Below are positions 4,171-57,356 of a DNA stretch of 64,000 nucleotides, piece after piece. Numbering within the stretch: position 1 is the stretch's first letter; every line of letters starts with the position of its first letter. The notes under the pieces are model-generated. The model was given only the letters and a program-made list of their open reading frames with translations, did not search any database and was not told where the DNA came from. Both the position numbers and the translations under genes were made by a program. The stretch is from Cupriavidus taiwanensis (GTDB lineage: Bacteria > Pseudomonadota > Gammaproteobacteria > Burkholderiales > Burkholderiaceae): the NCBI RefSeq assembly GCF_900249755.1, contig NZ_LT976854.1:622574-686573 (forward strand), written 5' to 3'.

Positions 4171-4214
4171 GGCGGGCCGAGGAACTGGCGCACGGTCCCT
4201 CCCTCGTCGTTCCG

Positions 4215-5117
4215 TTATCCGCTGCTCGCCTTGAGCCGCGGAATCAGTTCCTGCAGGAACTTGCGCGTGGCCAGCGTCGGCCGGCCAAGCCGGCGCTGGA
4301 TCAGCGAGAGCCGATGCGCGTCCGGCGGAATGTCGACGATGGCGATCGTGCGCATGCCCCATTCTTCGGCAATCTTGGCGGCATAGGATGGCGCGATCAG
4401 CACGCTGTCCCCGCGCTTGACCAGACCCAGCGCAGACGTCAGGGTGCCCACTTCCACACCGCTTGGCATGACCACGCCCTTGTCGGCAACCAGCTGGTCC
4501 AGCGTCCGGCGCACGCTGAAGAAGCGGCGCAAGCTGATGTGGTCGAAGCGCGAAAGGTCGGCCAGCCGTATCCGCTCGCGGTTGGCCAGCGGGCTGTCCA
4601 TGCTTACCACGGCACGCATGCGCCCCTGATAGACCACCTCTGACGATACTCCCGGCAGCTCGTCTTCGACCGCGCCAAGGCCGAAGTCGACAATGCCTGC
4701 GCGCACGCTTTCCACCGTCTCGTCGGTGGACAGCTCGTGCAGCTCGAATCGCACCCCCGGAAATTGCTTCCTGTACTCGGTGATCGGGCCTGCCAGCAGG
4801 CCGTAGATCATCAGCGGCGAGGCGGCGATGCTCACTTTCCCCCGCTTCATTGCCGCGAGTTCCTCGACGCTTCGGGTCGCGGCCTGCATGGTGGCGATCA
4901 CGTCGACGGCGAAGGCATGGAATTCGATCGCCGCGTCGGTCGGCTCTACCCGGCGCGTGGTCCGGTCAAACAGCGCAAAGCCGAGCTGTGTCTCCAGTTC
5001 CGCAATCACCTTGCTCGCGGCGGATTGGGTGATGTTCTGCCGGGTTGCCGCAGCCGTGATGCTGCGCGTCTCGAAGACTTCGAGGAAGAGGCGGAGCTGG
5101 CGCAAAGTGATATTCAT
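4215..5117 (-). CDS. LysR family regulator (left end of catabolic cluster)
   Basis: 300 residues from the start used here. The winged HTH fills residues 1-60 (MNITLRQLRLFLEVFETRS, then ITQSAASKVIAELE), followed by a periplasmic-binding-protein-like effector domain with VSIAASPL and HELSTDETVE. A second ATG 21 bp upstream would add MNTVGQG; it overlaps an inverted repeat, and the shorter form begins like other LysR proteins. It is divergent from the first Bug gene, so it probably controls that gene and the cluster behind it and represses itself. It is clearly related to the LysR at the other end of the cluster: the two share AASP, LHELSTDET, DFGL and the FS-x-RRT-x-D and EVGT segments. Confidence 0.9.
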   Translation of the reverse strand: MNITLRQLRLFLEVFETRSITAAATRQNITQSAASKVIAELETQLGFALFDRTTRRVEPTDAAIEFHAFAVDVIATMQAATRSVEELAAMKRGKVSIAASPLMIYGLLAGPITEYRKQFPGVRFELHELSTDETVESVRAGIVDFGLGAVEDELPGVSSEVVYQGRMRAVVSMDSPLANRERIRLADLSRFDHISLRRFFSVRRTLDQLVADKGVVMPSGVEVGTLTSALGLVKRGDSVLIAPSYAAKIAEEWGMRTIAIVDIPPDAHRLSLIQRRLGRPTLATRKFLQELIPRLKASSG

Positions 5118-5132
5118 GCCTTGACCGACTGT

Positions 5133-5164
5133 ATTCATGAAAAGAAGTCGATTGTGTCATGAAT
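5133..5164. promoter_or_regulatory. Inverted repeat in LysR/Bug divergent promoter
   Basis: ATTCATGA (5133-5140) and TCATGAAT (5157-5164) are exact complements, with centres 24 bp apart. The repeat lies just upstream of the LysR start and 74 bp before the first Bug gene. Its place suits an operator for the divergent LysR protein. That it is bound by LysR is inferred from position only. Confidence 0.45.
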
Positions 5165-5237
5165 GGGCTGTCCCTACTATCTGGCCGTGCAGTCACACGA
5201 CGCGGGCAAACCGCGCGCCAGAGTGGAGGAGACAAGA

Positions 5238-6212
5238 ATGCTTCGAACCGTGTCATGGAGGCGTCGCCTGATCGGCGCCTGCTTCCTGCTGGGATCGTCA
5301 GGCGTACTGGCTGACGGGGCCTATCCGCACAAGCCGGTGACGCTGGTGGTTCCCTTCGTAGCCGGAGGCATGACCGACGTGATGGCCCGGCAGTTGGCCG
5401 CCACGATGCAGAAGGCAACGGGTCAGCCCGTGCTGGTGGAAAACCGCCCCGGCGCGGGCGGCATCATCGGCGCGGAAAAAGTCGCCCGCGCGCAGCCGGA
5501 TGGTTATACCTTGCTCGTTACCACCACGGCACATGTGGTGAATCCCGCGATTACGAAGCGGTTGCCGTACGACACGGAGCGCGATTTCGCGCCGATCGCG
5601 CTGCTCGCCAGCACGCCCAGTGTGCTGGTGGTCAATCCTTCGGTTCCCGCCAAGAATCTCCAGCAGTTGCTCGCGTTCGCGCGCCGGTCCGGAAGCGTCA
5701 GCTACGGCTCGGCGGGTACCGGAGGCACCACGCATCTATCGGGCGCCCTGCTGGCAAGCCGCACCGGAGCACCGCTTCTCCATGTGCCCTACAAGGGCAC
5801 TGCCGCGGCCGTCAACGACCTGCTGGGCGGGCAGATTCAAGCGTCGTTCGTCGACGCGCTGACCGCACTCAAGTACATCCAGGCCGGGAAGCTCACACCG
5901 GTTGCCGTCACGACTAAGACCCGTGCCGCGGTCCTGCCAGATGTGCCGACTGTGGCGGAGCAGGGCGTGCCGGGCTACGAAACCGAGATCTGGATCGGCT
6001 TCTACGGCCCCGCAAGGCTGCCGTCCGGGATTCAGGCGCGGCTGAACGATCTGGCGCGAAGCTCGATGAATGACCCGCCATTCCAGGAAATGCTGCAGCA
6101 GCAAGGTACGACGCCGGGCCGCATGCCGGTACCCGAATTCCAGCGCTTCGTCAGCCAGGAGATTCGCAAGTGGGACGACATCGTCAAACGAACCGGCATC
6201 GAACCGCAATAG
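5238..6212 (+). CDS. Bug-type tripartite tricarboxylate receptor (first of a tandem pair)
   Basis: 324 residues, a normal length for Bug (TctC-type) periplasmic solute-binding proteins. A Sec signal occupies residues 1-26 (RRRLIGACFLLGSSGVLA), then YPHKPVTLVVPF, the GGMTDVMARQ ligand loop, NRPGAGGIIGAEKVA and a DGYTLL segment, all hallmarks of the family. These proteins bind carboxylic acids in the periplasm. The ATG is preceded by GGAGGAG; an upstream in-frame ATG would break the signal peptide. The next gene is a paralogue. No TctA/TctB membrane genes lie nearby, so it is an orphan receptor that works with a distant transporter or in sensing. Confidence 0.92.
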   Translation: MLRTVSWRRRLIGACFLLGSSGVLADGAYPHKPVTLVVPFVAGGMTDVMARQLAATMQKATGQPVLVENRPGAGGIIGAEKVARAQPDGYTLLVTTTAHVVNPAITKRLPYDTERDFAPIALLASTPSVLVVNPSVPAKNLQQLLAFARRSGSVSYGSAGTGGTTHLSGALLASRTGAPLLHVPYKGTAAAVNDLLGGQIQASFVDALTALKYIQAGKLTPVAVTTKTRAAVLPDVPTVAEQGVPGYETEIWIGFYGPARLPSGIQARLNDLARSSMNDPPFQEMLQQQGTTPGRMPVPEFQRFVSQEIRKWDDIVKRTGIEPQ

Positions 6213-6261
6213 CGCCCACAGCAAGTCCCTCGCGGCCACCACCTGACACCCGGAGACACCC

Positions 6262-7215
6262 TTGAAATCCGCAATCCCCTTCGCCATCGCCGCGTTCGCC
6301 ACCGTTGCGCACGCCGCCGAAACCTACCCCACCAAGCCCGTCACGCTGGTCGTGGCCTACGCGGCTGGCGGCATGACCGACATCCTGGCGCGCAAGGTCG
6401 CGGCGGACCTGCAGGCGCAGACCGGGCAGCCGTTCGTGGTGGACAACAAGCCTGGCGCCACCGGACAAATCGCGACGGAATACGTGTCGCGCCGGCCTGC
6501 GGACGGGTACACGATCCTGGTGGGCGCGACCAGCCACGTGATCAATCCGGCGATGAAGAAGGCGCTGCCATACGATGCCAGGAAGGCATTCGATCCGGTC
6601 GCGCTGCTGGCCATCAGCCCCAACTTCGTCCTGGTGAATGCGGGCCTGAGCATCAAGACCTTCGCTGACCTGAAAGCGTATGCCAGCACGCATTCGACGA
6701 TTCCGTATGGCACCGCGGGGATCGGCGGCGCACCGCATGTGGTGGGAGAGCTGTTGCGCGCGCAGAGCGGCCTGCCGCTGGTGCACGTGGCCTACAAGGG
6801 TGCGGGCCCCGCGATGGGTGACCTGGTGTCGGGGCAGGTGCCGTTCGGCGTCGCCGAGTCGGTGACGGCGAATGCTTACCTGAAGTCCGGAAAGATCGTG
6901 CCGCTGGCGGTGGCGTCGGCGCGCCGCAGCGAGCAGTACCCGGCGGTGCCGACGCTCAACGAGCTCGGCTACAAGGGCTTTGACCTGACGACCTGGGTCG
7001 GTGTCTACGCGCCCGCCGGCACGCCGCCGCAGGTCCTGGCCACGCTAAACCAGGGTTTTCGCAAAGCAATCGCCAGCCAGGCGACCTCCGAGTACATCCG
7101 CTCTACCGGATCGGAGCCCGGCAATATGGACCTGCCCACCTACAAGGCCTTCGTTCTGTCGGAGATGGACAAATGGAAGGCTGTGATTCAACAGGCGGGG
7201 GTCAAGGATGAGTAA
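6262..7215 (+). CDS. Bug-type tripartite tricarboxylate receptor (second of a tandem pair)
   Basis: 317 residues with a short signal peptide (MKSAIPFAIAAFATVAHA) and the Bug core: YPTKPVTLVVAYAAGG, GGMTDILARK, DNKPGATGQIATEYV, ADGYTILVG. It resembles its upstream neighbour, sharing the GGMTD loop, which suggests tandem duplication and similar ligands. The stop overlaps the start of the DUF35 gene by 8 bp, so the receptor is translationally linked to the enzymes behind it. This is the best evidence that its ligand, or a close relative, is the substrate of the cluster. Confidence 0.92.
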   Translation: MKSAIPFAIAAFATVAHAAETYPTKPVTLVVAYAAGGMTDILARKVAADLQAQTGQPFVVDNKPGATGQIATEYVSRRPADGYTILVGATSHVINPAMKKALPYDARKAFDPVALLAISPNFVLVNAGLSIKTFADLKAYASTHSTIPYGTAGIGGAPHVVGELLRAQSGLPLVHVAYKGAGPAMGDLVSGQVPFGVAESVTANAYLKSGKIVPLAVASARRSEQYPAVPTLNELGYKGFDLTTWVGVYAPAGTPPQVLATLNQGFRKAIASQATSEYIRSTGSEPGNMDLPTYKAFVLSEMDKWKAVIQQAGVKDE

Positions 7216-7606
7216 TCGCGACGAGGCCCGTGCGCACGGCGACGAGTCGCCCGAACAGGCGTTCTTCGCGGCGCTTCGCGCCGGTACGCCGAAGGTGCAG
7301 TGTTGCCAGGGATGCGGCAAGCGCTTCTTTGCCCCGCGCACGCATTGTCCGGTGTGCCGCAGCAGCCAGTACGCGTGGGTGTCGATGACAACCGCGGGCA
7401 CGCTTTACTCCTACTCGGAGATTCCGCCGCAGGGCGGCAATCCCGGCCGGAATGTCGTGCTGGTCGACATGGCCGACGGCTTTCGCATGATGTCGACGGT
7501 TCCCGGCGCAGGCCCCGGCGCGCTGGCCATCGGGATGCGCCTGACCGCGCTTGTCGATGCCGGCACGGAACCGCCGCGTATTGTTTTTGAAGAGGACGGC
7601 AAATGA
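7208..7606 (+). CDS. DUF35 zinc-ribbon/OB-fold protein, thiolase partner
   Basis: 132 residues. The N-terminal rubredoxin-like zinc ribbon is visible as CQGC near residue 34 and CPVC near 49, followed by the OB-fold (GTLYSYSEI to LVDMADGFRMM). Proteins of this family form stable complexes with thiolase-fold enzymes and bring them their acyl-CoA substrate, as in actinobacterial steroid side-chain breakdown. It overlaps the Bug gene by 8 bp and the thiolase gene by 4 bp (ATGA), as expected for a co-translated pair. Confidence 0.9.
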   Translation: MSNRDEARAHGDESPEQAFFAALRAGTPKVQCCQGCGKRFFAPRTHCPVCRSSQYAWVSMTTAGTLYSYSEIPPQGGNPGRNVVLVDMADGFRMMSTVPGAGPGALAIGMRLTALVDAGTEPPRIVFEEDGK

Positions 7607-8772
7607 TCGACTGGGAGCCATCGTTGCGGGGCAGCATCGCCATCGCCGGCAGCGCCACCGCGGGCATTGGCGATGCCGGAGGCCAGACCGACCTCGAGAT
7701 TACCTCTCGCGCCGTGCACGCCGCCGTGGAAGATGCCGGGCTGACGATGCCGGAGATCGACGGGCTGATGAGCGCGAGCCTGGCTTCGTCGATGTGGGTG
7801 GTGAAGCTGGCCGAGTACCTCAACCTCAGGCCGTCCTTCTCGGACAGCACGCAGATAGGCGGCGCGTCGTTCGTCGGTCATCTGCTGACGGCGGCCGCCG
7901 CGATCCGGGCGGGACTGTGTCGCAACATCGTGATCGCGTACGGTGCCACGCCGCGGGGCGGGAACAGCGTTTCGGCGACCTCGCCCGCCCGCGCGCGGCT
8001 GGACCCGTATCCGTTCGAGGATCCGTTCCAGCCTTTCAATCCGCCGACCAGCTATGCGCTGGCCGCGATGCGGCACATGCACGTGTACGGCACCACGCGC
8101 GAGCAGCTCGCGGAGGTTGCGGTGTCGGCGCGCCAATGGGCCCGGCTGAATCCGGAAGCGTTCCGGCGCGAGCCCCTGACGATCGATGAGGTCTTGCATG
8201 CCAGGCCGGTGTCGTCGCCGTTCACGGTGCGCGACTGCTGCCTGGTGACGGATGGCGCGGGCGCCGTCGTGGTGACCAGTGCGGAACGCGCCGGCGCGCT
8301 CAGGCGCCAGCCCGTCTACGTGCTGGGGACCGCGACTTCGCATCACCATCGCCAGATCTCGTCCATGGACGACCTTACCGTGACCGACGCGCGCATCAGC
8401 GGGGCGCTGGCACTGAAGCGCGCCAAAGCCAGTCTCGCCGAGATCGACCTGGTCCAGCTCTACGACGCGTTCACGATCAATCCCATCCTGTTCCTCGAGG
8501 ACCTAGGCTTCTGCGAAAAAGGGGAAGGCGGCCGCTTTGTCCAGGATGGCCGCATCGCCCCTGGCGGTGCGCTGCCGGTCAACACCAATGGCGGCGGCCT
8601 GTCCTGCGTGCACCCCGGCATGTACAGCATGTTCGGCCTGGTGGAGGCCGTGCGCCAGCTGCGTAGCGAGTGCGGCGAGCGCCAGGTCGCGCGCGCGCGG
8701 ACCTGCCTGGTCCATGGAAACGGCGGTGTGCTGAGCGCACAAGCCACAACTATCCTTTCAACCGAGAGATAA
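7603..8772 (+). CDS. Thiolase-fold enzyme without obvious nucleophilic Cys (SCP-x/Ltp2-like)
   Basis: 389 residues with the thiolase double fold of the SCP-x/lipid-transfer type. Where a normal thiolase has its reactive Cys (a CxxG/CSSG helix start near residue 90), this protein reads QIGGASFVGHLL. It keeps LYDAFTI, the NTNGGGLSCVHPG histidine loop and a C-terminal HGNGG. Loss of the Cys together with a DUF35 partner is known from Ltp2-type retro-aldolases, which cleave hydroxyacyl-CoA side chains; ordinary thiolysis is the alternative. Lies between DUF35 and SDR genes in a tight operon. Confidence 0.8.
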   Translation: MIDWEPSLRGSIAIAGSATAGIGDAGGQTDLEITSRAVHAAVEDAGLTMPEIDGLMSASLASSMWVVKLAEYLNLRPSFSDSTQIGGASFVGHLLTAAAAIRAGLCRNIVIAYGATPRGGNSVSATSPARARLDPYPFEDPFQPFNPPTSYALAAMRHMHVYGTTREQLAEVAVSARQWARLNPEAFRREPLTIDEVLHARPVSSPFTVRDCCLVTDGAGAVVVTSAERAGALRRQPVYVLGTATSHHHRQISSMDDLTVTDARISGALALKRAKASLAEIDLVQLYDAFTINPILFLEDLGFCEKGEGGRFVQDGRIAPGGALPVNTNGGGLSCVHPGMYSMFGLVEAVRQLRSECGERQVARARTCLVHGNGGVLSAQATTILSTER

Positions 8773-8776
8773 GCGA

Positions 8777-9682
8777 ATGCTGAACGGTAAAGTCGTCGTG
8801 GTAACGGGCGCGGGTAACGGTATCGGCCGTGCCGCGGCCATCGAGCTGGCGCGCCAGGGCGCGGCGGTGGTGGTCAATGACCTCAGTGTCTCGCTCGATG
8901 GGCACGAGGCCGGGGCGGACGCCGCTTCGGCCGTGGTCGAAGAGATCGTGCGGGCCGGCGGCAAAGCGGTGGCAAACGGCGACTCGGTGGCCGACTACGC
9001 CGGCGCGCAGCGCATGATCGACGCGGCGGTGCGGAACTTCGGACGCATCGACGCGGTGGTCAACAACGCCGGGATCGTGCGCGACAAGATGTTCCACAAG
9101 CTGACGCCGGAGGATTTCGACGCGGTCGTGAAGGTGCATCTGTACGGCACCTTCAACGTGAGCCACGCCGCGGCACAGCACTTCAAGGACCAGTCCGGCG
9201 GCAGCCTGATCCACATGACGTCGAATTCCGCGGTCATCGGCAACCGCGGCCAGGCCAATTATTGCGCCGCCAAGCTGGGCATCGTCGGTCTTTCCAAGGC
9301 GATCGCGCTGGACATGCAGCGCTTCAATGTCCGTTCGAACTGCATCGCGCCGCTCGCCTGGAGCCGGATGACCGAGACGATTCCGGCGAAGACGGCCGAG
9401 CAGGCGCGCCATATCGAAAAGATCCGCCGCATGGGGCCGGAAACCATAGCGCCGCTGATTGCCTATCTGGCGTCGGACGAATCGGCCAGCGTGTCGGGCC
9501 AGGTCTTTGCGATCCGCCTCAACGAGATCTTCCTGATGAGCCAGTCGCGCCCGGCGAAATCGGTCCACCGTTCCGACGGCTGGACCCCGCAGGCGATTGC
9601 CAGCCACGGCATGCCGGCGCTGCGCCAGTCCTTCATGCCGCTCGATACCTCCGCAGAAGTGTTCGCGTGGGACCCGGTGTAA
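8777..9682 (+). CDS. SDR family oxidoreductase (3-hydroxyacyl-CoA dehydrogenase, MFE-2 type)
   Basis: 301 residues. NAD(P)-binding TGAGNGIGRAAA lies near residues 12-23, NNAG near 95, and the catalytic Ser / Tyr-x3-Lys as SNSAVIGNRGQANYCAAK near 155-172. It is longer than a plain SDR (about 250) because of a C-terminal tail of some 50 residues, as in the dehydrogenase half of peroxisomal MFE-2. The next gene encodes a hydratase-2, the other half of MFE-2. Expected role: oxidation of a hydroxyacyl-CoA formed in side-chain beta-oxidation. Confidence 0.85.
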   Translation: MLNGKVVVVTGAGNGIGRAAAIELARQGAAVVVNDLSVSLDGHEAGADAASAVVEEIVRAGGKAVANGDSVADYAGAQRMIDAAVRNFGRIDAVVNNAGIVRDKMFHKLTPEDFDAVVKVHLYGTFNVSHAAAQHFKDQSGGSLIHMTSNSAVIGNRGQANYCAAKLGIVGLSKAIALDMQRFNVRSNCIAPLAWSRMTETIPAKTAEQARHIEKIRRMGPETIAPLIAYLASDESASVSGQVFAIRLNEIFLMSQSRPAKSVHRSDGWTPQAIASHGMPALRQSFMPLDTSAEVFAWDPV

Positions 9683-9689
9683 GCGTGCC

Positions 9690-10583
9690 ATGGCGATCGA
9701 TTACCACCGGCTCAGGTCAGCCGCGTTCGCGCCGCTGCGCCACGCCTACGGCCCGGATGACTGCATTCTTTACGCGCTGGGCGTGGGCGCCGGGCTGAGC
9801 GAGGACCCCGCGATCGGCGACGAGGTCGAGTACCTGTATGAGGAAAGACTGAAGGCGCTGCCGTCGATGGCCGCCGTGATTGCGTACCCGGGCTTCTGGA
9901 TGCGCGACGCGGTGCACGGCATCGACTGGCGGCGGGTCGTGAATGGCGAGATGCGCATGACGCTGTTTCGGCAGCTCGCGGTTAGCGGCGACGTCATCGG
10001 TCACAGCCGCGTGGCGCGCGTGACGGACAAGGGGCCGCGTGGCGGCGCGCTGGTCGTGACCGAGCGGTCCATCGTCGACGCGGCCACCGGGCAACCGGTC
10101 GCGCGCGTGGACCAGGTCAATCTCTGCCGCGGCGACGGCGGCTATTCGGCGGGAGACGCCGCGCAGTCGGACGAGGCCTTGCCGCCGATTCCGCGCGCCC
10201 CGGAACGTAGCCCCGACGACATCCTGGTGCTTCCCGTCAGCAGGAACCAGGCGGCCATCTACCGGCTCACCGGCGACCGGAATCCGCTGCATATCGATCC
10301 GCAGAGCGCGAAGCTGGCCGGCTTGGATGCGCCGATCCTGCATGGCGCATCGATGGCCGGGCTGGCAGCCAGGGCGGTGATGCGGACGCCGCCGTCCGCG
10401 CACGCCTGGGTTGGCGGGATCGATATCCGCTTTACCGGGATGGCGTATCCGGGGCGCGCCGTTGCCGTTGAACTGTGGCGCTCGCCGGAAGCGACCAGCT
10501 TCCGTTGCGTCGAGGCTGACAGTCACAGAGAGCTGGCGTTCGGCGTTGCCGCGTGGCAATCCGCCGGTTCCATGGAGGCATGA
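9690..10583 (+). CDS. MaoC-like (R)-enoyl-CoA hydratase (hydratase 2)
   Basis: 297 residues, a double hot-dog protein. The C-terminal half carries the hydratase-2 motif TGDRNPLHIDP with the Asp/His catalytic pair (near residues 193-203), then LHGASMAG. The N-terminal half (from the chosen ATG to about residue 150) is the substrate-binding hot-dog without that motif. It starts 7 bp after the SDR stop. Together the pair matches the two halves of an MFE-2 enzyme: hydration of a trans-2-enoyl-CoA to the 3R-hydroxyacyl-CoA, then oxidation. Confidence 0.87.
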   Translation: MAIDYHRLRSAAFAPLRHAYGPDDCILYALGVGAGLSEDPAIGDEVEYLYEERLKALPSMAAVIAYPGFWMRDAVHGIDWRRVVNGEMRMTLFRQLAVSGDVIGHSRVARVTDKGPRGGALVVTERSIVDAATGQPVARVDQVNLCRGDGGYSAGDAAQSDEALPPIPRAPERSPDDILVLPVSRNQAAIYRLTGDRNPLHIDPQSAKLAGLDAPILHGASMAGLAARAVMRTPPSAHAWVGGIDIRFTGMAYPGRAVAVELWRSPEATSFRCVEADSHRELAFGVAAWQSAGSMEA

Positions 10584-10586
10584 GGC

Positions 10587-11264
10587 ATGCAGGACAAGCT
10601 GATCGCATCGGCGGCTGAGGCAGTGGCGGACATACGCTCCGGAGCGTCGATATTCGTGGGCGGGTTCGGTGGATCGGGCATCCCGGCGCAGTTGCTTGCT
10701 GCATTGCTCGAGTGCAGCAGCGCGACCGAACTTACGCTCGTCAACAACAACGCCGGTGCGGGGGACGCCAGTTTCCTGGCACTGGTGCGTGGCGGGCGGG
10801 TGCGGCGCATCGTCTGCTCTTACCCGCGCATGCCGGGCTCGGAAGTCCTTCGCGACCTCGTGCTGGCCGGAAGGCTGCAGGTGGAGGTGATGCCGCAAGG
10901 CACGCTGGTCGAGCGCATCCGCGCCGCCGGGGCCGGGCTGGGGCCCTTCTTTACGCCGACCGGCTATGGAACGCCGTTCGCATCGGGCAAGGAATGCCGA
11001 GTCATCGACGGCAAGGGGTACGTGCTGGAGCAGCCGCTCCATGCCGACTACGCCTTCGTCAATGCGTCGCGAGCCGACAGGCTGGGCAATCTCGAGTACC
11101 GCTACGCCCAGCGCAACTTCGGCCCGGTCATGTGCACGGCGGCAACGATCACGATCGTCGAGGCAGACGTCATCGCGGAAACCGGCTCGCTCGATCCGTG
11201 CCACATCGTGACGCCCAGTGTCTTTGTCAGCCGCGTCGTCAGGAGGGAACCATGCGCCATCTGA
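10587..11264 (+). CDS. CoA-transferase family I, subunit A
   Basis: 225 residues, as usual for the alpha subunit of 3-oxoacid/acyl CoA-transferases. The glycine-rich FVGGFGGSGIPAQLL near residues 25-40, VNNNAGAG and FTPTGYGTPFASGKE are family landmarks. It transfers CoA from a donor such as succinyl- or acetyl-CoA to a carboxylic acid. Its 3' end overlaps the subunit B gene by 13 bp. In this setting it probably activates the acid brought in by the Bug receptors, or recycles CoA from a late intermediate. Confidence 0.9.
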   Translation: MQDKLIASAAEAVADIRSGASIFVGGFGGSGIPAQLLAALLECSSATELTLVNNNAGAGDASFLALVRGGRVRRIVCSYPRMPGSEVLRDLVLAGRLQVEVMPQGTLVERIRAAGAGLGPFFTPTGYGTPFASGKECRVIDGKGYVLEQPLHADYAFVNASRADRLGNLEYRYAQRNFGPVMCTAATITIVEADVIAETGSLDPCHIVTPSVFVSRVVRREPCAI

Positions 11265-11953
11265 CGCGACCTGACATTGCCCGCATGGTGGCGGCGGACT
11301 TTCCGCAGCATGCCGTGGTGAATCTCGGCATTGGCATGCCAACGCTCGTGACCGGGCATATTGCGCCGGGGCTGGGCATACACCTGCACAGCGAGAACGG
11401 CATTCTCGGCATGGCGCAGCGAGACCCGCAGGTGCCGCCGGACCCCGACCTGATCAATGCCAGCAAGGAGCACGTGGCGCTCCAGCCCGGCGCGTCGATT
11501 TGCGACCACGCCTTGTCCTTCACCATGATGCGCGGCGGCCACCTCGATATCACGGTGCTGGGCGCGTTCGAGGTCGCGGCCAACGGCGACATCGCCAACT
11601 GGGCGCTGGGCGAGGGCGATCCGCTGCCTTCCGTGGGCGGCGCGATGGACCTCGCGGTCGGCACGCCGACGGTGTGGGTGATGATGGAAACGCTGACACG
11701 TGCCGGCGCTTCGCGCCTGGTCAGCCACTGTTCGCTGCCGCTGACCGCGCAGGGGGTGGTCAGCCGGGTGTATTCAGAGATCGGCGTCTTCGACGTGGAA
11801 GACAACCACTTCGTCCCCCGGCGCCTGCTTGCCGGGATCGGGCTGGAATCCATGTCCCGCTGGGTGGGCGGACCGGTCGCGTGGCCGGCCGGCGGACCGG
11901 CGGTCATCGCGTTGCCACCGGACGGGCAGGGCGGCTCAGCACCGCGCCTTTGA
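11252..11953 (+). CDS. CoA-transferase family I, subunit B
   Basis: 233 residues. The catalytic glutamate lies in HSENGILGM near residue 49, and NLGIGMPTLV, GGHLDITVLGAFEV and the GGAMDLAVG segments follow the family. The ATG has an AGGAGG 5 nt upstream, inside the end of subunit A, so translation is coupled. Together A and B make the active heteromer. The substrate is unknown; the beta-ketoadipate and acetoacetate enzymes have the same architecture. Confidence 0.9.
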   Translation: MRHLTRPDIARMVAADFPQHAVVNLGIGMPTLVTGHIAPGLGIHLHSENGILGMAQRDPQVPPDPDLINASKEHVALQPGASICDHALSFTMMRGGHLDITVLGAFEVAANGDIANWALGEGDPLPSVGGAMDLAVGTPTVWVMMETLTRAGASRLVSHCSLPLTAQGVVSRVYSEIGVFDVEDNHFVPRRLLAGIGLESMSRWVGGPVAWPAGGPAVIALPPDGQGGSAPRL

Positions 11954-11969
11954 CATGGAACGGAATCCA

Positions 11970-13142
11970 ATGAAACAAGATATCGTCGCGGAAGCCACGG
12001 CATGGCTGCAGAAGGCACTGGCCGTGCTGCGGCAGGAGTTTCCCGCGCACGCCAACCCTGGCCAGCCGTGTCGCATCCGGTGGAATGCGCTGCTATGCGA
12101 GGCGGACCTGGTGGCATTGACCTGGCCCGAGGCACTGGGCGGGCGCGGCTTGCCGACGTCTGACCTGATCGCCTTTCACGAACTGTGCGCAAGGTTCGGC
12201 GCGCCGCAGCCCATCAACAGCATTGCGCATTCGATACTCGCGCCCACGCTGCTGAAATTCGGCACGGACGCACAGAAGGCAAAGTTTCTTCCCGGGATTC
12301 GCGCGGGCACCGAGATCTGGTGCCAGGGCTACTCCGAGCCGGGCTCGGGGTCCGACCTTGCCTCGGTCCGCACCCGTGCCGCCAGGATGGATGGCGGCTG
12401 GGTCGTGAACGGACACAAGATCTGGACCACGCAGGCGCACCTGGCGCGATGGTGCTTTGCGCTGGTTCGTACCGAAGCCGGAAGCGCGGGACACCGGGGG
12501 CTGAGCTTCATGCTGGTGGACATGCAGGCGCCAGGCGTTCGGGTCGAGCCGATCCGCCAGCTGACCGGCGAGGCCGACTACAACGAGGTGTTGTTCGAGG
12601 ACGTGCGGGTCCCGGACGGCCACATCGTGGGCGAGGTGGGCGAAGGCTGGCGCATTGCGATGGCCGCGGCGGAATTCGAGCGCGGCATCTATTTCCTGCC
12701 CCGCGTGGTGCAGCTCGAGCACGAACTGGAGCGGGCCAGGACACTGCTGGAGCAGGCGCAACTGAACGCCGCGGACGCCAGCGGCTATCGCCACCGGCTG
12801 CTCGAGGTCAGCGACAGCTGCCAGGTCATTCGCTGGCGTGTCGAACAGGTCGTCAGCCAGGTCGCAGCGGGAAAGACGCCGGGTACGGATGGCGCGATCC
12901 TCAAGCTGCTGTGGAGCGAAACGCGCCAGAAGGTGATCGAGCTCCAGCTCGACCTGCTTGGCGCGCGCGGCATGGTCGGACCTGAAGCGGGCGGCGCGTA
13001 CTGCGAAGACGCCGCGGTCGTCAGGGAATTCTTGTGGTCTCGCGCCGAGACAATCGTCGCCGGCACTTCCGAGATCCAGCGAAACATCATTGCGGAGCGC
13101 ATCCTGGGGCTTCCGAAGGACAAACATGGCAACGCAAACTGA
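11970..13142 (+). CDS. Acyl-CoA dehydrogenase, large subunit-like
   Basis: 390 residues with the full ACAD fold: N-terminal helices, QGYSEPGSGSDLASVRTRA (FAD/substrate loop) near 120-138, GHKIWTTQAH, and a C-terminal VAGTSEIQRNIIAERILGLP. In short-chain ACADs the base is the Glu of YEGTSEIQ; here that place reads IVAGTSEIQ, so the base must come from elsewhere, as in several FadE proteins. It overlaps the next ACAD gene by 17 bp. The pairing suggests a mixed enzyme. An in-frame ATG 15 bp upstream is possible. Confidence 0.88.
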   Translation: MKQDIVAEATAWLQKALAVLRQEFPAHANPGQPCRIRWNALLCEADLVALTWPEALGGRGLPTSDLIAFHELCARFGAPQPINSIAHSILAPTLLKFGTDAQKAKFLPGIRAGTEIWCQGYSEPGSGSDLASVRTRAARMDGGWVVNGHKIWTTQAHLARWCFALVRTEAGSAGHRGLSFMLVDMQAPGVRVEPIRQLTGEADYNEVLFEDVRVPDGHIVGEVGEGWRIAMAAAEFERGIYFLPRVVQLEHELERARTLLEQAQLNAADASGYRHRLLEVSDSCQVIRWRVEQVVSQVAAGKTPGTDGAILKLLWSETRQKVIELQLDLLGARGMVGPEAGGAYCEDAAVVREFLWSRAETIVAGTSEIQRNIIAERILGLPKDKHGNAN

Positions 13143-14136
13143 AGCGGAAGACATGCTGCCGGCGTCGTTCGGCAGACTGATGCGCGAGCAGCATCCGCTG
13201 GCCGATGCGCGCCGCGGCGATACGCTGGATGAACCGCGGCACTACGCAAAATGGGCAAGCCTCGATCAAGGGGGCTGGCTCGAACTGGCGGACGTCGAGG
13301 CCGAACCCGGGACGCATTACCCGCTTGCGCTGGGCGAAATGATGGGGCGGTCGCTGCTCAACCTGCCGCTGGCGTTTTCCGCCTATGTCCTGCATCCGCT
13401 GTGCCAGCAGGTTCCCGAACTGCTGGGCGCGGGCACCGTGTTGCCATGGCAGCGGCATCCCGGCGTTGGCCGCGTGGAGCAAGCGGAGCCGGAGGACGAC
13501 GCGCGTTTCATTGATTTCCATGGGCGGCGCGCGTGCTATTACCGGCTTGCGCCCGCCGGGGAGCGCGACGGTAGCTGGCAAATCCAGCGTTATGACGGCA
13601 CCGATGTCGACGTTGTCGCGGGCATGGACGTGTGCGGAGCGCTCGGATGCCTGCCTGCCGGCAGTGCGGCGGCGCAAGCCGGCTTTTCGCTGCCGTGGGC
13701 CAGCATGCAGCCGTTGTTGCGCAGGTACCTGGCGGTGGAGCTGGCGCAGACACTCGGAGCGGCGGCTGCCGCGCTGGACATGGCGGTCAGCTACGCCACC
13801 GAGCGCCGCCAGTTCGGCAAGCCGATCGGCCAGTACCAGGCCATCAAGCATGCGCTGGCCAATGCCTGGGTAGCACTGGACAACGGGCGCTATGCGGTCC
13901 GGGCCTTGCTGGGGGAGGGCGCGGCGCCTGACGTGGCTGGCATCGCAACCCGGCTGGTGGTCGCGGCCGCGACGCAGGCGACAAAGCTGGCGATCCAGGT
14001 CCACGGCGGCATAGGCTTTGCCTGGGAGCACGACGCGCATCTGTTCCTGAAGCGCGTCTATCACAAGCGCTTGGAGGTGCAGCGTCTGGCGAGATTGCTG
14101 GATACGTACCAGCATCCCGTCCGGATCGCAGCGTAG
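13126..14136 (+). CDS. Acyl-CoA dehydrogenase, divergent partner subunit
   Basis: 336 residues, shorter than a normal ACAD (about 380). The N-terminal and middle parts are weakly conserved (the usual EPxxGSD loop is not seen), while the C-terminal domain is typical: SYATERRQFGKPIGQYQAIKH near 222-242, then IQVHGGIGFAWEHDAHLFLKR. This pattern, next to a full ACAD, is like the alpha2-beta2 dehydrogenases that act on CoA-bound steroid side chains, where one subunit has lost part of the active site. It overlaps the upstream ACAD gene by 17 bp. Confidence 0.85.
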   Translation: MATQTEAEDMLPASFGRLMREQHPLADARRGDTLDEPRHYAKWASLDQGGWLELADVEAEPGTHYPLALGEMMGRSLLNLPLAFSAYVLHPLCQQVPELLGAGTVLPWQRHPGVGRVEQAEPEDDARFIDFHGRRACYYRLAPAGERDGSWQIQRYDGTDVDVVAGMDVCGALGCLPAGSAAAQAGFSLPWASMQPLLRRYLAVELAQTLGAAAAALDMAVSYATERRQFGKPIGQYQAIKHALANAWVALDNGRYAVRALLGEGAAPDVAGIATRLVVAAATQATKLAIQVHGGIGFAWEHDAHLFLKRVYHKRLEVQRLARLLDTYQHPVRIAA

Positions 14137-14238
14137 CGCGAAGCGGCCACGCTGCGGCCCCTGCGAACCGCTCGCAGCCGCGCGGATATATTCCAAAGCA
14201 CGATAATTCTATGAACACAATTCGCTTGTTGGCATGAG

Positions 14239-14253
14239 TGTTCGGGCCGAACA
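14239..14253. promoter_or_regulatory. Palindrome upstream of third Bug gene
   Basis: TGTTCGG G CCGAACA: two exact 7-bp arms around one base, 28 bp before the Bug start. It lies in the 144-bp gap that follows the ACAD pair, an AT-rich stretch suited to an internal promoter. It may be an operator for one of the LysR proteins or a 5' hairpin; the sequence does not decide. Confidence 0.4.
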
Positions 14254-14280
14254 TGGCGGCTATCAGACAAGGAGACAGAG

Positions 14281-15234
14281 ATGAAGGCCCTGATTGCCGC
14301 CCTGGTGACCGCAACGATGATTGCGCCCGCCGCCTTCGCGCAAGGCGATTCTTATCCCAGCCGGCCGGTCAAGCTGGTGGTGCCGTTTACCGCCGGGAGC
14401 GCCTCGGACACGGCGGCCCGCATCATTGCCGAAGAGGTGCGCACCTCGCTGGGCACCATCGTCGTCGACAACCGGCCAGGTGCCAACGGCATCATCGGCG
14501 CGAGCTATGTGGCGAAGTCGCCGGCAGACGGCTACACGCTGTTGCTGACCAGCAGCTCGACCCATTCCGGCATCGAGGCGCTGTACAAGCGCCCCGGCTA
14601 CGATCCGATCAAGGACTTCGTCCACATCTCCCGCATTGCCACCATTCCGATGGTGCTGGTGACGCGCCCAGACGCGCCCTACAAGTCGGCCCGCGACATG
14701 GCAGCGCATGCGCAGAAGAGCCGCTTGCGCTATGGCTACGGCAGCGGATCGGCGCAAATCGCCGCGGCAACGTTCTCGCAGCTGGCCAACGTGCCTGCCG
14801 ATGCGATTCCGTACAAGAGCCAGCCTCCGGCGGTGACCGACCTGCTCGGCAGCCAGATCGACTTCATGGTCGCGGACACGTCGGTGGTGATGGGCTTCCT
14901 GCATGGCGGGAAGCTGAACGGGCTGGCGATTACCAGCCCGAAGCGCCTGCCCGAGTTGCCGAACGTGCCGACCATGGCCGAAGCCGGCTACCCGCAGTTC
15001 GACCTGGTGGTGTGGGTCGGACTGGCGGCCCCGGCCGGAACGCCTGCGCCCATCGTGGCGCGCTGGAACCAGGCGGTGAACGAGGCGATCGCCCGCCCCG
15101 CCGTCGTCGACAAGCTGGGCAAGCTTGGCATGGTCGCCGCCCCGGCTAGCACCCGGGAGTTCGCGGCATTCACGGTGGCACAACGCGGCATCTGGACTTC
15201 CCGGGCGTCGAAGGCCGGTGTGGAGCAGCAATGA
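14281..15234 (+). CDS. Bug-type tripartite tricarboxylate receptor
   Basis: 317 residues: signal peptide 1-20 (ending AAFAQG), YPSRPVKLVVPF, a GSASDTAARI loop in place of the GG-x-TD loop of the first two Bugs, NRPGANGIIGASYVA and DGYTLLLT. The altered loop suggests a different ligand from the 5.2 and 6.3 kb receptors. GGAGACAG precedes the ATG. The stop overlaps the CoA-transferase start by 4 bp (ATGA), so receptor and enzyme are co-translated. Confidence 0.92.
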   Translation: MKALIAALVTATMIAPAAFAQGDSYPSRPVKLVVPFTAGSASDTAARIIAEEVRTSLGTIVVDNRPGANGIIGASYVAKSPADGYTLLLTSSSTHSGIEALYKRPGYDPIKDFVHISRIATIPMVLVTRPDAPYKSARDMAAHAQKSRLRYGYGSGSAQIAAATFSQLANVPADAIPYKSQPPAVTDLLGSQIDFMVADTSVVMGFLHGGKLNGLAITSPKRLPELPNVPTMAEAGYPQFDLVVWVGLAAPAGTPAPIVARWNQAVNEAIARPAVVDKLGKLGMVAAPASTREFAAFTVAQRGIWTSRASKAGVEQQ

Positions 15235-16397
15235 CGAACCAGGCAGCACAGGTTGCGGCACAGGTCGCGGGTCCGTTGGCCGGGGTGCGGGTGCTGGACC
15301 TGACCTCGGTCATCATGGGGCCGGTCTGCACGCAGATCCTCGCCGACTACGGCGCCACCGTGGTCAAGGTCGAACCGCCGGAGGGCGACGTCATGCGCCA
15401 TGCCGGCAGCAAGCGTGCGCCGGGGTTGGGCTCGATGTTCCTGCACGCCAACCAGGGCAAGCAATCGGTCATGCTCGACCTGAAGCGCGAGGCGGATATC
15501 GCCACGCTCAGGCAGATGCTGCCGGATTTCGACGTGCTGGTGCACAACGTGCGGCCGCAGGCGATGCGGCGCCTTGGCCTGGACGACGAAGCGGTGCGCA
15601 AGCTGAACCCGGGCATGGTGTATGTCGAATTGTCGGGCTATGCCGACGGCGGTCCGATGCGCGGACGCGCCGCCTATGACGACGTGATCCAGGCCGAGGC
15701 CGGCCTGGCGGACCTGTTCGCCCGGCAGACCGGCGGCGCGCCGCAATACGTGCCGACGCTGATCGCCGACCGCGTGACCGGCCTGACCGCCGCGCACGCC
15801 ACCATTGCCGCGCTCTACAGCCGGCAGCGCAGCGGACGCGGCGATACCCTCCGCGTTTCCATGTTCGAGACCATGGCCGCGTTCGTTCTGGGCGACCACC
15901 TGGGCGGCGCTTCCTTCGAACCGGCAGCCGGCCCGATGGGCTACAGCCGCCTGCTTACCCCGCACCGGAAACCCTACCAGACCAGCGACGGCTACATCGC
16001 CGCGGTGGTCTACAACGACAAGCACTGGCGCGCGTTTTTCGAGGCCATCGGCGAAATCCGCAGGTTTGAGGCCGACCCGAGATTCCAGACGGCCGCCGCC
16101 CGTGCGGACAACTACGACGCCATCTACGGCTACCTGGCCGAAGTCATGGCAACACGCACCACGCAAGAGTGGGTGGACTTGCTGGAAGGCGCGGATATTC
16201 CCCACGCCCGCGTCAATCGTGTCGAGGACCTGCTGGATGACGCCCAGCTCAGGGCCGTCGGGTTCTTCGATGAACGCGATTTTGGCGATGCCGGGCAACG
16301 CCGTATTGCGGCGCGCTTCCGCTCGCCGGCAGCCGCGCATGACTTTCCGACACCCGCCCCGACGCTGGGCCGCGGGACAACGAACACTGGACAATGA
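15231..16397 (+). CDS. CaiB/BaiF family (class III) CoA-transferase
   Basis: 388 residues, usual length. GVRVLDLTSVIMGPVCTQILADYGATVVKVEPPEGD opens the protein; the catalytic Asp is predicted at about residue 180 in LIADRVTGLTAAHA, matching the family pattern Asp-x3-Gly. Such enzymes form interlocked dimers and move CoA between acids in the cytosol. It overlaps the Bug gene before it and the crotonase gene after it, each by 4 bp. This is the second way to activate an acid in the cluster, beside the two-subunit CoA-transferase. Confidence 0.92.
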   Translation: MTNQAAQVAAQVAGPLAGVRVLDLTSVIMGPVCTQILADYGATVVKVEPPEGDVMRHAGSKRAPGLGSMFLHANQGKQSVMLDLKREADIATLRQMLPDFDVLVHNVRPQAMRRLGLDDEAVRKLNPGMVYVELSGYADGGPMRGRAAYDDVIQAEAGLADLFARQTGGAPQYVPTLIADRVTGLTAAHATIAALYSRQRSGRGDTLRVSMFETMAAFVLGDHLGGASFEPAAGPMGYSRLLTPHRKPYQTSDGYIAAVVYNDKHWRAFFEAIGEIRRFEADPRFQTAAARADNYDAIYGYLAEVMATRTTQEWVDLLEGADIPHARVNRVEDLLDDAQLRAVGFFDERDFGDAGQRRIAARFRSPAAAHDFPTPAPTLGRGTTNTGQ

Positions 16398-17173
16398 CGA
16401 TGGAAGACCTGAAACACCTGACGCTGCAGGTATCGGACCAGGGCGTGGCAACGCTGCAGATTGCCAACGGCACGAGCCTGAATATCCTGGACTCCGACAC
16501 CATCACCGAATTCACGACTACGCTGCGCCGGCTGGCAAGGCGCCCCGACGTGCGCGTGCTGGTGTTGCGCGGTACCGGCGAGAAAGCGTTCATTGGCGGC
16601 GCCAACATCAAGGAGCTGGCGAAGCTGAACCCCGAGACCGCGGTGGCTTTCATTACGCGCCTGCACGATCTTTGCGAAGCGGTGCGCGACTTCCCCGTGC
16701 CGACGATTGCGCGGCTGTCCGGCTGGTGCATGGGCGGCGGAATGGAGTTCGCCGCGGCCTGCGACATCCGCATCGCGGATGACCGCGCGAACTTTGCCAT
16801 GCCCGAGGTACGGATCGGGATTCCGTCGGTGATTCACGCCAACATCCTGCCGCGGCTGATCGGCGAGGGGAACACGCGCTGGATGCTTCTGACTGGCGCT
16901 TCCATCGACGCCGCCCGCGCGCAAGCCTGGGGCTTTGTGCATGAGGTCGTGCCGAACAGCGGCCTGGATCACGCCGTGGCGCATACCGTAGCCGAGATCC
17001 TCGAATGCGCTCCCGAAGCGGTGCGCGCGCAGAAGGCCCTGCTGCGCGCCTGGGAAGACCCCGCGATCGAGCGCGGGCTGAAGCACAGCATCGAAGTCTT
17101 CGGGGCATGCTATGCCGGCGCCGAACCGGACACCTACATGACCCGCTTCTTCGCGCGCAAGCAGCAGCGATGA
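16394..17173 (+). CDS. Enoyl-CoA hydratase/isomerase (crotonase family)
   Basis: 259 residues. The first oxyanion-hole segment is KAFIGGANIKELAKL near residues 57-71, the second is GWCMGGGMEFAAACDIRIA near 110-128; a MPEVRIGIPSV segment follows, where the acidic residue can serve as one catalytic Glu. This fits a hydratase, isomerase or hydrolase of the crotonase fold. It is the last enzyme gene before the second LysR and closes the presumed operon. Confidence 0.9.
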   Translation: MTMEDLKHLTLQVSDQGVATLQIANGTSLNILDSDTITEFTTTLRRLARRPDVRVLVLRGTGEKAFIGGANIKELAKLNPETAVAFITRLHDLCEAVRDFPVPTIARLSGWCMGGGMEFAAACDIRIADDRANFAMPEVRIGIPSVIHANILPRLIGEGNTRWMLLTGASIDAARAQAWGFVHEVVPNSGLDHAVAHTVAEILECAPEAVRAQKALLRAWEDPAIERGLKHSIEVFGACYAGAEPDTYMTRFFARKQQR

Positions 17174-17227
17174 AAGGGCAGGGGGCCGTCAGGTATGATC
17201 GACGGCTCTGCCAAGCCTGCCTTGCCC

Positions 17228-18136
17228 ATGAACTTCACGCTCCGGGAGTTTCGCGTTTTTCGCGTCGTCTACGAACTGCGCAGTTTCAGCGGCGCTTCGC
17301 AGGCGCTGCACATGACGCAGTCCGCGGTCAGCAAGGTCTGCCAGGAGATGGAGTCGAAGGTCGGCCAGCGCCTGTTCGAGCGCTCGACGCGCAAGGTCGT
17401 GCCCACGCTGCTGGCCGAGCAGCTGTACCGGCATGTTTGCGAGGTGCTCGGCACCATGGACGCCGCCGAGCGCAGCATGCGCAGCCTGTTGAACATGGAA
17501 GCGGGCGAGGTCAGTGTCGCCGCTTCGCCGATGCTGTGCGTGGGGCTGCTGCGCAAGGCCGTCACGGCGTTCCACCAGGCCTACCCCGCGATTCGCATCG
17601 GCCTGCATGAGCTGTCAACCGATGAAACCATCGACTACGTCGTCAACGGCAAGGCTGACTTCGGCCTGGCCTCCATCGAGGGCGCGCATCCGAAGCTGAC
17701 CATCGAGCATGTCTTCAACGAAAGGATGTTCGTCGTCTGCGCCGCGGACCATGCGTTGGCGCGCAAGCGCTCGGTAAGCTGGGAGCAGCTGGCGGCCTGG
17801 CCGCAGATTTCATTGCACCCGACCTTCAGCACGCGGCGCACCGTGGACCGGGTCTTCGCTGGCCGTGGCCTGGCGTATGCCAGCGCGATCGAGGTTGGCA
17901 CCGTGCTGTCGGCGATCAGCTTTGCCAAGGCTGGTGTCGGCGTGGCGGTGCTGCCGGGCTATGTCACCGAGCTGGTCGGGGAGTTCGGCCTGGTGGCCAA
18001 AGCCCTGCCGGCTGAAGGCGTCGAGCACCCGATCGCCATCATCACGCGGCACAACGCCATGTTGTCGGCGCCGGCAGCGCGCCTGCTGCATGACGTCAGG
18101 CAGTCGCTCGAGCAACGGCTGCGCTCGCGGCCATAG
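17228..18136 (+). CDS. LysR family regulator (right end of catabolic cluster)
   Basis: 302 residues from the ATG used here; an ATG 33 bp upstream would add MIDGSAKPALP. MNFTLREFRVFRVVYELRS and MTQSAVSKVCQEME form the HTH. The effector domain is related to the LysR at 4.2-5.1 kb (AASP, GLHELSTDETID, DFGL, FSTRRTVDR, IEVGT). It follows the crotonase gene by about 50 bp and may be co-transcribed. With its twin at the far end it brackets the catabolic cluster; both may answer to related CoA-pathway intermediates. Confidence 0.9.
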   Translation: MNFTLREFRVFRVVYELRSFSGASQALHMTQSAVSKVCQEMESKVGQRLFERSTRKVVPTLLAEQLYRHVCEVLGTMDAAERSMRSLLNMEAGEVSVAASPMLCVGLLRKAVTAFHQAYPAIRIGLHELSTDETIDYVVNGKADFGLASIEGAHPKLTIEHVFNERMFVVCAADHALARKRSVSWEQLAAWPQISLHPTFSTRRTVDRVFAGRGLAYASAIEVGTVLSAISFAKAGVGVAVLPGYVTELVGEFGLVAKALPAEGVEHPIAIITRHNAMLSAPAARLLHDVRQSLEQRLRSRP

Positions 18137-18156
18137 CGCGGCGCCCCGGCCCGGCA

Positions 18157-18387
18157 TCAGTCAATGCCTGTGCCGCGCAGCGGCTTCAGCAAATGCGACA
18201 GCCCGTTGTGATCCAGTTCATGCATCAGCGCCAGCAGCGCGCCGATCTGTCCCGGCGGAAAACCCTCGCGCGCGAACCAGTTCAGGTAGTTGCCCGGCAG
18301 GTCGGCGATCAGCGTGCCTTTGTGCTTGCCAAAGGGCATGGTGACGGTGACCAGGCGTTTGAGGGCGTCGGCGTCGAAATCGGTCAT
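18157..18387 (-). CDS. DUF3820 family protein
   Basis: 76 residues. The TVTMPFGKHKGTLIADLP motif near residues 14-30 and the NWFAREGFPPGQIGALLALMHEL segment are the marks of this small family, found in many proteobacteria; some members are described as virulence or quorum-related, but no molecular function is settled. The ATG used gives MTDFDADALKR; a GTG 27 bp upstream is also in frame. It lies between two unrelated LysR genes, oppositely oriented to the first. Confidence 0.8.
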   Translation of the reverse strand: MTDFDADALKRLVTVTMPFGKHKGTLIADLPGNYLNWFAREGFPPGQIGALLALMHELDHNGLSHLLKPLRGTGID

Positions 18388-18445
18388 GGGGCAAAGCCAG
18401 TCGGAAAACGCCACGCTACCACAGCCGCGGCGGCGATAACGGGGC

Positions 18446-19354: not shown

Positions 19355-19454
19355 CAGGAAATCCTATAGGTGCTAGTCGAATTGCATATTTTACTTGATA
19401 GCTTGCGCTGCGCAGAATCGAACCACCGAAACGCAAGCCATCGAGGAGCACGCC

Positions 19455-57294: not shown

Positions 57295-57356
57295 GCGGCC
57301 ACGCCGTGCCGCCGGGCATGGCACAGACATCGAACAATGCCAACGAGGAGACTGCA

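Follow-up and report, generated by a model that had tools for sequence, protein, structure and literature searches.

The closest described counterparts of the system reported here are the aldolases Sal–Shy of Comamonas testosteroni (PDB 9MYR) and Ltp2–ChsH2 (6OK1), in which a thiolase-fold subunit without the thiolase cysteine is paired with a DUF35 protein and carries the tyrosine of a YDxY or YDxF motif. The available sections of PMC12329534 describe this tyrosine (Tyr294 in Ltp2, Tyr302 in Sal) as the catalytic base, with the His of YDHF and Tyr344 as second catalytic residues in Ltp2 and Cys304 in Sal. We analyzed a 64,000-nucleotide stretch of the Cupriavidus taiwanensis genome (contig NZ_LT976854.1, positions 622,574–686,573; hereafter the window), located on a 2.36-Mb contig of a genome totaling 5.95 Mb. 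Eleven co-oriented genes on the + strand (window positions 7208–17173) form a cluster that includes a DUF35 gene and a gene for a thiolase-fold enzyme, THL, which shares the missing cysteine, the DUF35 partner, and the tyrosine with Sal and Ltp2. The best explanation, in which we place even confidence, is that these genes form a catabolic operon for a carboxylic acid that ordinary thiolysis could not fully break down and that DUF35–THL would cut by a retro-aldol reaction.

Judged from its sequence, THL is not a classical thiolase. Positions 86–89 read Gly-Gly-Ser/Ala-Ser/Ala almost throughout its 102 relatives (>50% identity), with cysteine in none (0/102), and THL itself has Gly/Ala/Ser where SCP2 and degradative thiolases are defined by a nucleophilic cysteine. 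By contrast, the YDAF motif with Tyr287 was present in all 102 relatives, His337 in 101, and His371 in 97, and PDB alignments placed Tyr287 on Tyr294 of Ltp2 and Tyr302 of Sal. The DUF35 protein contains a CxxC...CxxC ribbon (Cys33, 36, 47, and 50). We compared 103 loci with THL above 50% identity, including the window and G249, a second genome of the genus; at least 93 of them have a DUF35 gene no more than 10 kb from THL, a lower bound given that an unlabelled DUF35-like ORF adjoins THL in locus L074.

An AlphaFold model of THL (pLDDT 82.6) was nearest to the uncharacterised structure 4U4E (Z 50.1; 1.8 A over 352 residues), followed by the aldolases Sal (9MYR; Z 48.4; 2.5 A over 366) and Ltp2 (6OK1; Z 47.3; 3.1 A over 365), TbSLP (Z 46.7; 2.1 A over 358), and an archaeal acetoacetyl-CoA thiolase (Z 46.5; 2.0 A over 361). 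BbsB (7PYT) scored Z 42.5 (2.8 A over 364), SCP2 thiolases approximately 42, and classical or biosynthetic thiolases approximately 33; Foldseek concurred on ranks 1 and 2. THL appears aldolase-like, yet we do not file it as an Ltp2/Sal member because their second catalytic residues are not there. The first-pass annotation had invoked both a thiolase-fold enzyme and a DUF35–Ltp2 aldolase; with the cysteine absent, the aldolase label is closer to the truth, whereas the second catalytic residues of Ltp2 are not found in THL.

The genes of the cluster and its immediate flanks, as obtained from ORF calls and family searches, are as follows.

4215–5138, − strand: LysR-type regulator (from the ORF), 41% identical to the LysR at 17195 and divergent from the Bug–Bug–DUF35 genes; possible local regulator
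5163–6212 and 6262–7215, + strand: two Bug (tripartite tricarboxylate) solute-receptor genes, a relative being annotated as tripartite tricarboxylate transporter substrate binding protein; the second overlaps the start of the DUF35 gene (7208)
7208–7606, + strand: DUF35/ChsH2-type zinc-ribbon and OB-fold protein, THL partner (Pfam PF01796 and PF12172 over cut-off; PDB 9MYR_B, 6OK1_B)
7603–8772, + strand: THL, thiolase-fold enzyme (NCBIfam PRK06158), predicted retro-aldolase (Y287-D-A-F, His337, His371; no nucleophilic Cys)
8777–9682, + strand: short-chain dehydrogenase (SDR) resembling the (3R)-3-hydroxyacyl-CoA dehydrogenase domain of MFE-2 (PDB 2ET6, 1GZ6, 1ZBQ)
9690–10583, + strand: MaoC enoyl-CoA hydratase-2 with two hot-dog halves (Pfam PF01575 and PF22622 over cut-off; PDB 3OML, 3KHP, 1S9C)
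10587–11264, + strand: 3-oxoacid-type CoA-transferase subunit A (TIGR02429, 292 bits, cut-off 128.5)
11252–11953, + strand: 3-oxoacid-type CoA-transferase subunit B with SENG motif (TIGR02428, 227.7 bits, just below the cut-off of 243.55)
11970–13142, + strand: acyl-CoA dehydrogenase ACAD1, probable catalytic subunit (top three PDB chains 4X28_A, 6WY9_A, 6WY8_B)
13126–14136, + strand: short divergent acyl-CoA dehydrogenase ACAD2, probable partner subunit (IpdE2 model best, 86 of 450 bits)
14281–15234, + strand: Bug solute receptor (annotation of a relative)
15231–16397, + strand: CaiB-type (class III) CoA-transferase (PF02515, 344 bits)
16394–17173, + strand: crotonase PRK06143 (NF004795, 397 bits, cut-off 283)
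17195–18136, + strand: LysR-type regulator closing the cluster, 95% identical in G249

All eleven reading frames are open, and neighboring genes overlap or lie at most 16 bp apart, except that 144 bp separate ACAD2 from the Bug gene. The genes that the first-pass annotation had named are thus all present, open, and co-oriented; the Bug gene at 14281–15234, which it did not list, lies inside the string. It had also likened SDR and MaoC, at about 300 residues each, to the two halves of MFE-2, and both the sizes (301 and 297 aa) and the nearest structures bear this out. The top PDB matches of SDR were peroxisomal (3R)-hydroxyacyl-CoA dehydrogenases/17-beta-HSD4 (2ET6, 333 bits; 1GZ6, 208; 1ZBQ, 205), followed by the bacterial short-chain dehydrogenase 3QLJ (199 bits) and 3-oxoacyl reductase chains at 160 bits or less. 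MaoC was nearest to MFE-2 (3OML, 1S9C) and to the bacterial MaoC protein 3KHP, and it contains a GDRNPLH motif. SDR and MaoC are thus of MFE-2 type by sequence likeness; they are encoded by separate genes, whereas MFE-2 is a single chain. A 672-aa frame of another genome (G560, locus L048), considered as a fused SDR–MaoC gene, was rejected, as the frame holds MaoC and SDR lies in another frame.

The top three PDB chains of ACAD1 belong to the ChsE4–ChsE5 and Tcur3481–Tcur3483 steroid acyl-CoA dehydrogenase entries. For ACAD2, the best NCBIfam model, IpdE2, stayed far under its cut-off, and a low-confidence predicted structure (pLDDT 66.3) had Tcur3481 (6WY8_C) as its top match, scarcely ahead of other acyl-CoA dehydrogenases. 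Adjacent genes for a full-length ACAD1 and a divergent ACAD2 correspond to the layout of heteromeric steroid-type acyl-CoA dehydrogenases, and ACAD1 is probably the catalytic and ACAD2 the partner subunit. The idea of a steroid-type dehydrogenase pair held well for ACAD1, near the subunits of steroid heteromers, and less surely for ACAD2. Subunit A of the CoA-transferase passed its model cut-off; subunit B fell short of its own and retains SENG. ENG is the catalytic motif of 3-oxoacid CoA-transferases. MaoC and the crotonase also retain their motif residues; the crotonase has Glu at both crotonase positions (118 and 138).

Given these enzyme families, activation, desaturation, and hydration would precede the cut. 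A Bug receptor would capture the acid, the PcaIJ-type transferase and/or CaiB would attach CoA, the ACAD1–ACAD2 pair would desaturate the acyl-CoA, and MaoC would hydrate it to a (3R)-3-hydroxyacyl-CoA. In the retro-aldol step that would follow, Tyr287 of the DUF35–THL complex would serve as base for the 3-hydroxyl, and cleavage of the C–C bond would yield a short acyl-CoA along with a ketone or an aldehyde; the R-type SDR would act on a hydroxyacyl-CoA before or after the cut. The acid is most likely branched or cyclic near its carboxyl group, and this branching or ring would most likely be the cause of its resistance to thiolysis. The branched, terpenoid, or cyclic acid proposed in the first-pass annotation is a plausible substrate.

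Gene order across the 103 loci revealed a family of related operons. A gene was scored as FadJ if it lay no more than 10 kb from THL with ≥40% identity over >150 aa, and as SDR or carboxyltransferase if it lay within the same distance with ≥50%; MaoC, ligase, and ACAD labels were E ≤ 1e-8 matches to a small chosen library. In a quick LG+G4 tree of 102 THLs (30 of 97 inner branches below 80; L098 left out, its translated match holding a stop), the window and G249 grouped with 12 others in a 14-row group (SH-aLRT 99). Eleven of these 12 sister loci carry a FadJ-type gene (L069 does not, by our criterion) and six a CoA-transferase. L084 and L102 showed the order DUF35–THL–CoATA–CoATB–ACAD–ACAD–FadJ–CaiB, after which come Bug and crotonase in L084 and crotonase in L102. 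FadJ combines a crotonase with a 3-hydroxyacyl-CoA dehydrogenase, the same two activities as SDR plus MaoC. By gene order, the window operon looks like a sister operon in which SDR–MaoC, between THL and the transferase, replaces FadJ, with no direction of exchange implied. In the sister operons, the FadJ-type (MFE-1-like) protein would do the hydratase and dehydrogenase work, and with SDR and MaoC in its place, the intermediate should be of the opposite stereochemistry. The operon copies in L084 ("Pantoea sp. 18069") and L102 ("Streptomyces sp. ODS25"), records that bear the names of distant genera, are near those of Burkholderiales, by transfer, contamination, or misnaming. L067 (Hydrogenophaga sp. 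BPS33 plasmid pBPS33-1) has a DUF35–THL–CoA-transferase cluster between IS3 and IS1071 transposase genes and may lie on a catabolic transposon.

FadJ and SDR did not occur together in any of the 103 loci (FadJ alone 19, SDR alone 36, neither 48; p = 1.2e-4), nor in the 81 loci remaining after collapse by genus and pattern (p = 0.0039). As some contigs are short, we also considered the 59 collapsed loci with a length of 18 kb or more, where they again never co-occurred (13 and 21 alone; p = 0.0021). SDR and MaoC were associated (both in 20 loci, 16 and 6 alone; p = 4.6e-7). The smallest number of FadJ/SDR switches was five, a count specific to the THL tree used, in which the window pair is sister to a FadJ-rich clade. 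CoA-transferase and CoA-ligase genes occurred together in only 2/103 loci (p = 8.8e-5; collapsed 2/81, p = 0.012), so the transferase probably activates the acid. Two pairs of rows have identical THLs: L063 and L142, which are probably the same genome, and L144 and L153.

Pollutimonas locus L072 carries DUF35–THL, CoATAB, SDR–MaoC, CaiB, and an ACAD pair in another order; it belongs to another THL clade, indicating that a similar toolkit was assembled more than once. A Pseudomonas aeruginosa variant has an acetate–CoA-ligase-family gene, MaoC, two ACADs, crotonase, SDR, and a porin. In L149 and L127, both from this species, the order is DUF35–THL–ligase–MaoC–MFS–PaaI–ACAD–crotonase–ACAD–SDR–NADH:quinone reductase, with an OprD porin in L149, whose THL is annotated as thiolase; this locus is presumably PA1015–PA1025 of PAO1. 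With somewhat less than even confidence, we propose that YDAF (PRK06158-type) proteins may be a separate, widespread class of DUF35-dependent C–C lyases, either aldolases or CoA-independent retro-Claisen hydrolases, acting on non-steroid acids in Burkholderiales, Pseudomonas, and others. Their operons would use FadJ (S) or SDR plus MaoC (R), exchanged repeatedly as a bacterial parallel to peroxisomal MFE-1/MFE-2.

The gene set of the cluster is conserved. All eleven genes are collinear in G249, at 81–97% protein identity and with dN/dS of 0.06–0.28 (THL 0.09) by a simple NG86-type count; the ACAD2 of G249 ends a few codons earlier, at its own stop codon. This collinear, constrained copy argues that the gene set is not a chance assembly. 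Nucleotide synteny covers at least window positions 1147–20404, the end of the compared stretch, and thus reaches past the cluster, which there does not form a bounded island. The most specific marker, ACAD2, had a match at E ≤ 1e-40 in 3/60 genus genomes, its own counted. THL matched at E ≤ 1e-120 in 21/299 family genomes, exceeding 64% identity only in its own genome and G249. Matches to THL at E ≤ 1e-5, including distant ones, came from 568 of 72,556 plasmid records, 368 of which have a single place covering 80% of the query. At least 598 stretches of the genome collection also matched, of which 80 were kept. The window gene order is rare yet not isolated, and the DUF35–THL family itself is common. 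The impression in the first-pass annotation of a set standing alone was not supported, given the closely similar operons of the FadJ variant and the common DUF35–THL family. The own genome also contains a core paralogue with FadJ (L007, C2:259001–278000; order Bug–DUF35–THL–FadJ), so both the FadJ and the SDR plus MaoC versions are present in one cell. A gene for a KstD-like flavoprotein (best model PRK06134, 772 of 747 bits) lies approximately 4 kb beyond the L007 core.

Several observations weigh against a retro-aldol operon in which SDR and MaoC take the place of FadJ. Cysteine stands at the thiolase position in 2/6 other aligned thiolase-fold proteins (BktB and L005), and its loss is not confined to the THL family. 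At the places of the second catalytic residues of Ltp2 and Sal, THL has Ala289 and His337, and the Z scores of Ltp2, TbSLP, and the archaeal thiolase differ by less than 1, which the aligner counts as a tie. Neither FadJ nor SDR lies within 10 kb of THL in 48/103 loci. The exchange pattern is looser for MaoC than for SDR: MaoC occurs beside FadJ in one locus (L088) and is missing from 16 SDR loci, and FadJ versus MaoC gave p = 0.038 (collapsed, 0.10). The loci share ancestry, so that this and the other Fisher p-values are not independent, and collapse by genus and pattern reduces the duplication only partly. Finally, FadJ or SDR accompanies 55/103 THL genes, and a retro-aldolase needs no prior 3-hydroxyacyl-CoA dehydrogenase.

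That a dehydrogenase is co-conserved speaks for a 3-oxo substrate and leaves room for a rival in which DUF35–THL is a CoA-independent, hydrolytic retro-Claisen enzyme: SDR or FadJ would make a 3-oxoacyl-CoA, THL would hydrolyze it to an acyl-CoA and a free acid, and the acid would regain CoA through the 3-oxoacid/PcaIJ-type transferase. The interchangeable type of the dehydrogenase, the 3-oxoacid-family transferase in the operon, and the missing cysteine, without which the usual acyl-enzyme cannot form, are consistent with it; we nevertheless consider it doubtful, since the conserved tyrosine is most simply a base for a hydroxyl and 43/103 loci have ligase genes without a transferase. We know of no characterised DUF35 partner with such activity. 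Ordinary beta-oxidation of a simple acid, with THL degenerate or accessory and another thiolase doing the cutting, would also explain the missing cysteine and could draw on five other thiolase-fold matches in the genome. YDAF in 102/102 relatives and the dN/dS of THL indicate constraint, and we regard this alternative as improbable.

The other alternatives concern the substrate and products. A narrower form of the retro-aldol reading, not exclusive of it, is that the acyl-CoA released by THL would be propionyl-CoA, cut from an alpha-methyl-branched chain as happens in peroxisomal and Ltp2-type routes. All seven loci with a carboxyltransferase also have a CoA-transferase, and the best matches of this carboxyltransferase are beta chains of propionyl-CoA carboxylase (251 bits versus 165 for methylcrotonyl-CoA carboxylase); the available part of PMC9195938 likewise reports propionyl-CoA from ibuprofen cleavage by IpfDE. 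Only these 7/103 loci have a carboxylase gene, however, and the window operon is not among them; moreover, the best NCBIfam model for the carboxyltransferase gave 298 of 999 bits, and L068 and L137 have weaker relatives (29% and 25%) without a transferase, so that propionyl-CoA release is possible rather than likely. The same carboxylase genes beside the core in relatives, together with the 3-oxoacid-type transferase, might instead suggest a leucine or acyclic-terpene type of route, in which a carboxylated beta-methyl intermediate is hydrated and cut in an HMG-CoA-lyase-like manner into acetyl-CoA and a 3-oxoacid that the transferase then activates. We give this hardly any credence, because the carboxyltransferase resembles propionyl-CoA carboxylase more closely than the methylcrotonyl- or geranyl-CoA enzymes, and the window operon contains no carboxylase. 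Steroid or bile-acid side-chain degradation would fit a DUF35-aldolase, paired ACADs, and MaoC, which published work describes as the steroid side-chain toolkit. In this genome the ring marker HsaA reached 58 of 450 bits at best and the ketosteroid dehydrogenase model PRK12844 488.6 of 789 bits, searches that speak weakly because no control genome passed either cut-off. MaoC and DUF35 are moreover unfused here and the ribbon has four cysteines, both in contrast to Shy as portrayed in the sections available. Steroid use looks unlikely, if on weak evidence, and we rate it as very improbable.

The regulators, Bug receptors, and crotonase of the cluster yielded no substrate hint. Upstream, a galactarate dehydratase gene (2605–4170; 928 bits, cut-off 731), probably unrelated to the cluster, and a PF04199 cyclase-type gene on the opposite strand (1240–2295) were found; the two Bug genes at 5163–7215 could serve this galactarate/cyclase side or the DUF35 cluster. 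Downstream, a LysR gene on the − strand and CaiB and ACAD genes on the + strand (18446–21765) perhaps form a second acid-use unit; the best model for this ACAD is acryloyl-CoA reductase (381 of 640 bits). Approximately 40 kb from the cluster (56562–63186), a long frame matching biotin carboxylase and carboxyltransferase is followed by a double-length CaiB protein.

The open-licence papers searched contained no assigned substrate for the window gene order and no description of FadJ-type DUF35–THL operons. C. testosteroni KF-1 converts 3-aryl-butyrate to acetophenone, the cutting enzyme being unnamed in the part of PMC3746432 available, and a BadI-like ring hydrolase was proposed for Castellaniella defragrans, with "thiolase" not occurring in the main text of PMC4109377. 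Public records annotate THL-family genes, including those of P. aeruginosa, as "thiolase" or "acetyl-CoA acetyltransferase". If the family consists of C–C lyases without thiolase chemistry, many pathway annotations would be wrong and a set of acid-degrading pathways would be opened to direct test. The FadJ versus SDR plus MaoC exchange offers a clean system for asking whether the downstream lyase tolerates either stereochemistry, and retro-aldolases acting on non-steroid acyl-CoAs would be useful in biocatalysis.

Compared with known systems, the cluster shares modules with several. IpfE of the ibuprofen pathway of Sphingomonadaceae is presumably a DUF35 protein. IpfD–IpfE, which we liken to DUF35–THL by description and not by sequence, act after a ring dioxygenase, not after an ACAD and a hydratase; as far as the available text of PMC9195938 goes, the thiolase releases propionyl-CoA by a retro-aldol reaction. 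Benzoylsuccinyl-CoA thiolase (BbsAB) combines, like the window, a DUF35 and a thiolase-fold subunit. The bbs operon also contains CoA-transferase, dehydrogenase, hydratase, and SDR genes. In the window, however, the BbsA and BbsB NCBIfam models gave 26.9 and 136.7 bits, far short of their cut-offs of 250 and 750, and BbsB has HDAF where THL has YDAF; the BbsB model NF053628 matched none of 274 class genomes and none of 14 controls either, which makes this search uninformative. Peroxisomal MFE-2 and SCP-x comprise an R-type dehydrogenase, a hydratase-2, and an SCP2-thiolase-fold enzyme, modules paralleled in the window by separate proteins, with no SCP2-like domain among the Pfam matches and no thiolase cysteine. 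Relative to Sal and Ltp2, THL has YDAF instead of YDCY and YDHF and His337 instead of Gln and Tyr344, respectively. The window DUF35 is not fused to MaoC, its ribbon has four cysteines versus C3H1 in Shy, to go by the sections of PMC12329534 available, and no steroid setting was seen. The operons of Achromobacter (L079 and L080), L084, and L102 share DUF35–THL–CoATA–CoATB–ACAD–ACAD with the window, with CaiB further on and Bug and/or crotonase, and their THLs belong to the 14-row group. L084 has the order CaiB–Bug–crotonase versus Bug–CaiB–crotonase in the window, and L079 and L084 carry a small thioesterase-like gene (judged by eye); the FadJ-type operons differ from the window in having FadJ where it has SDR and MaoC.

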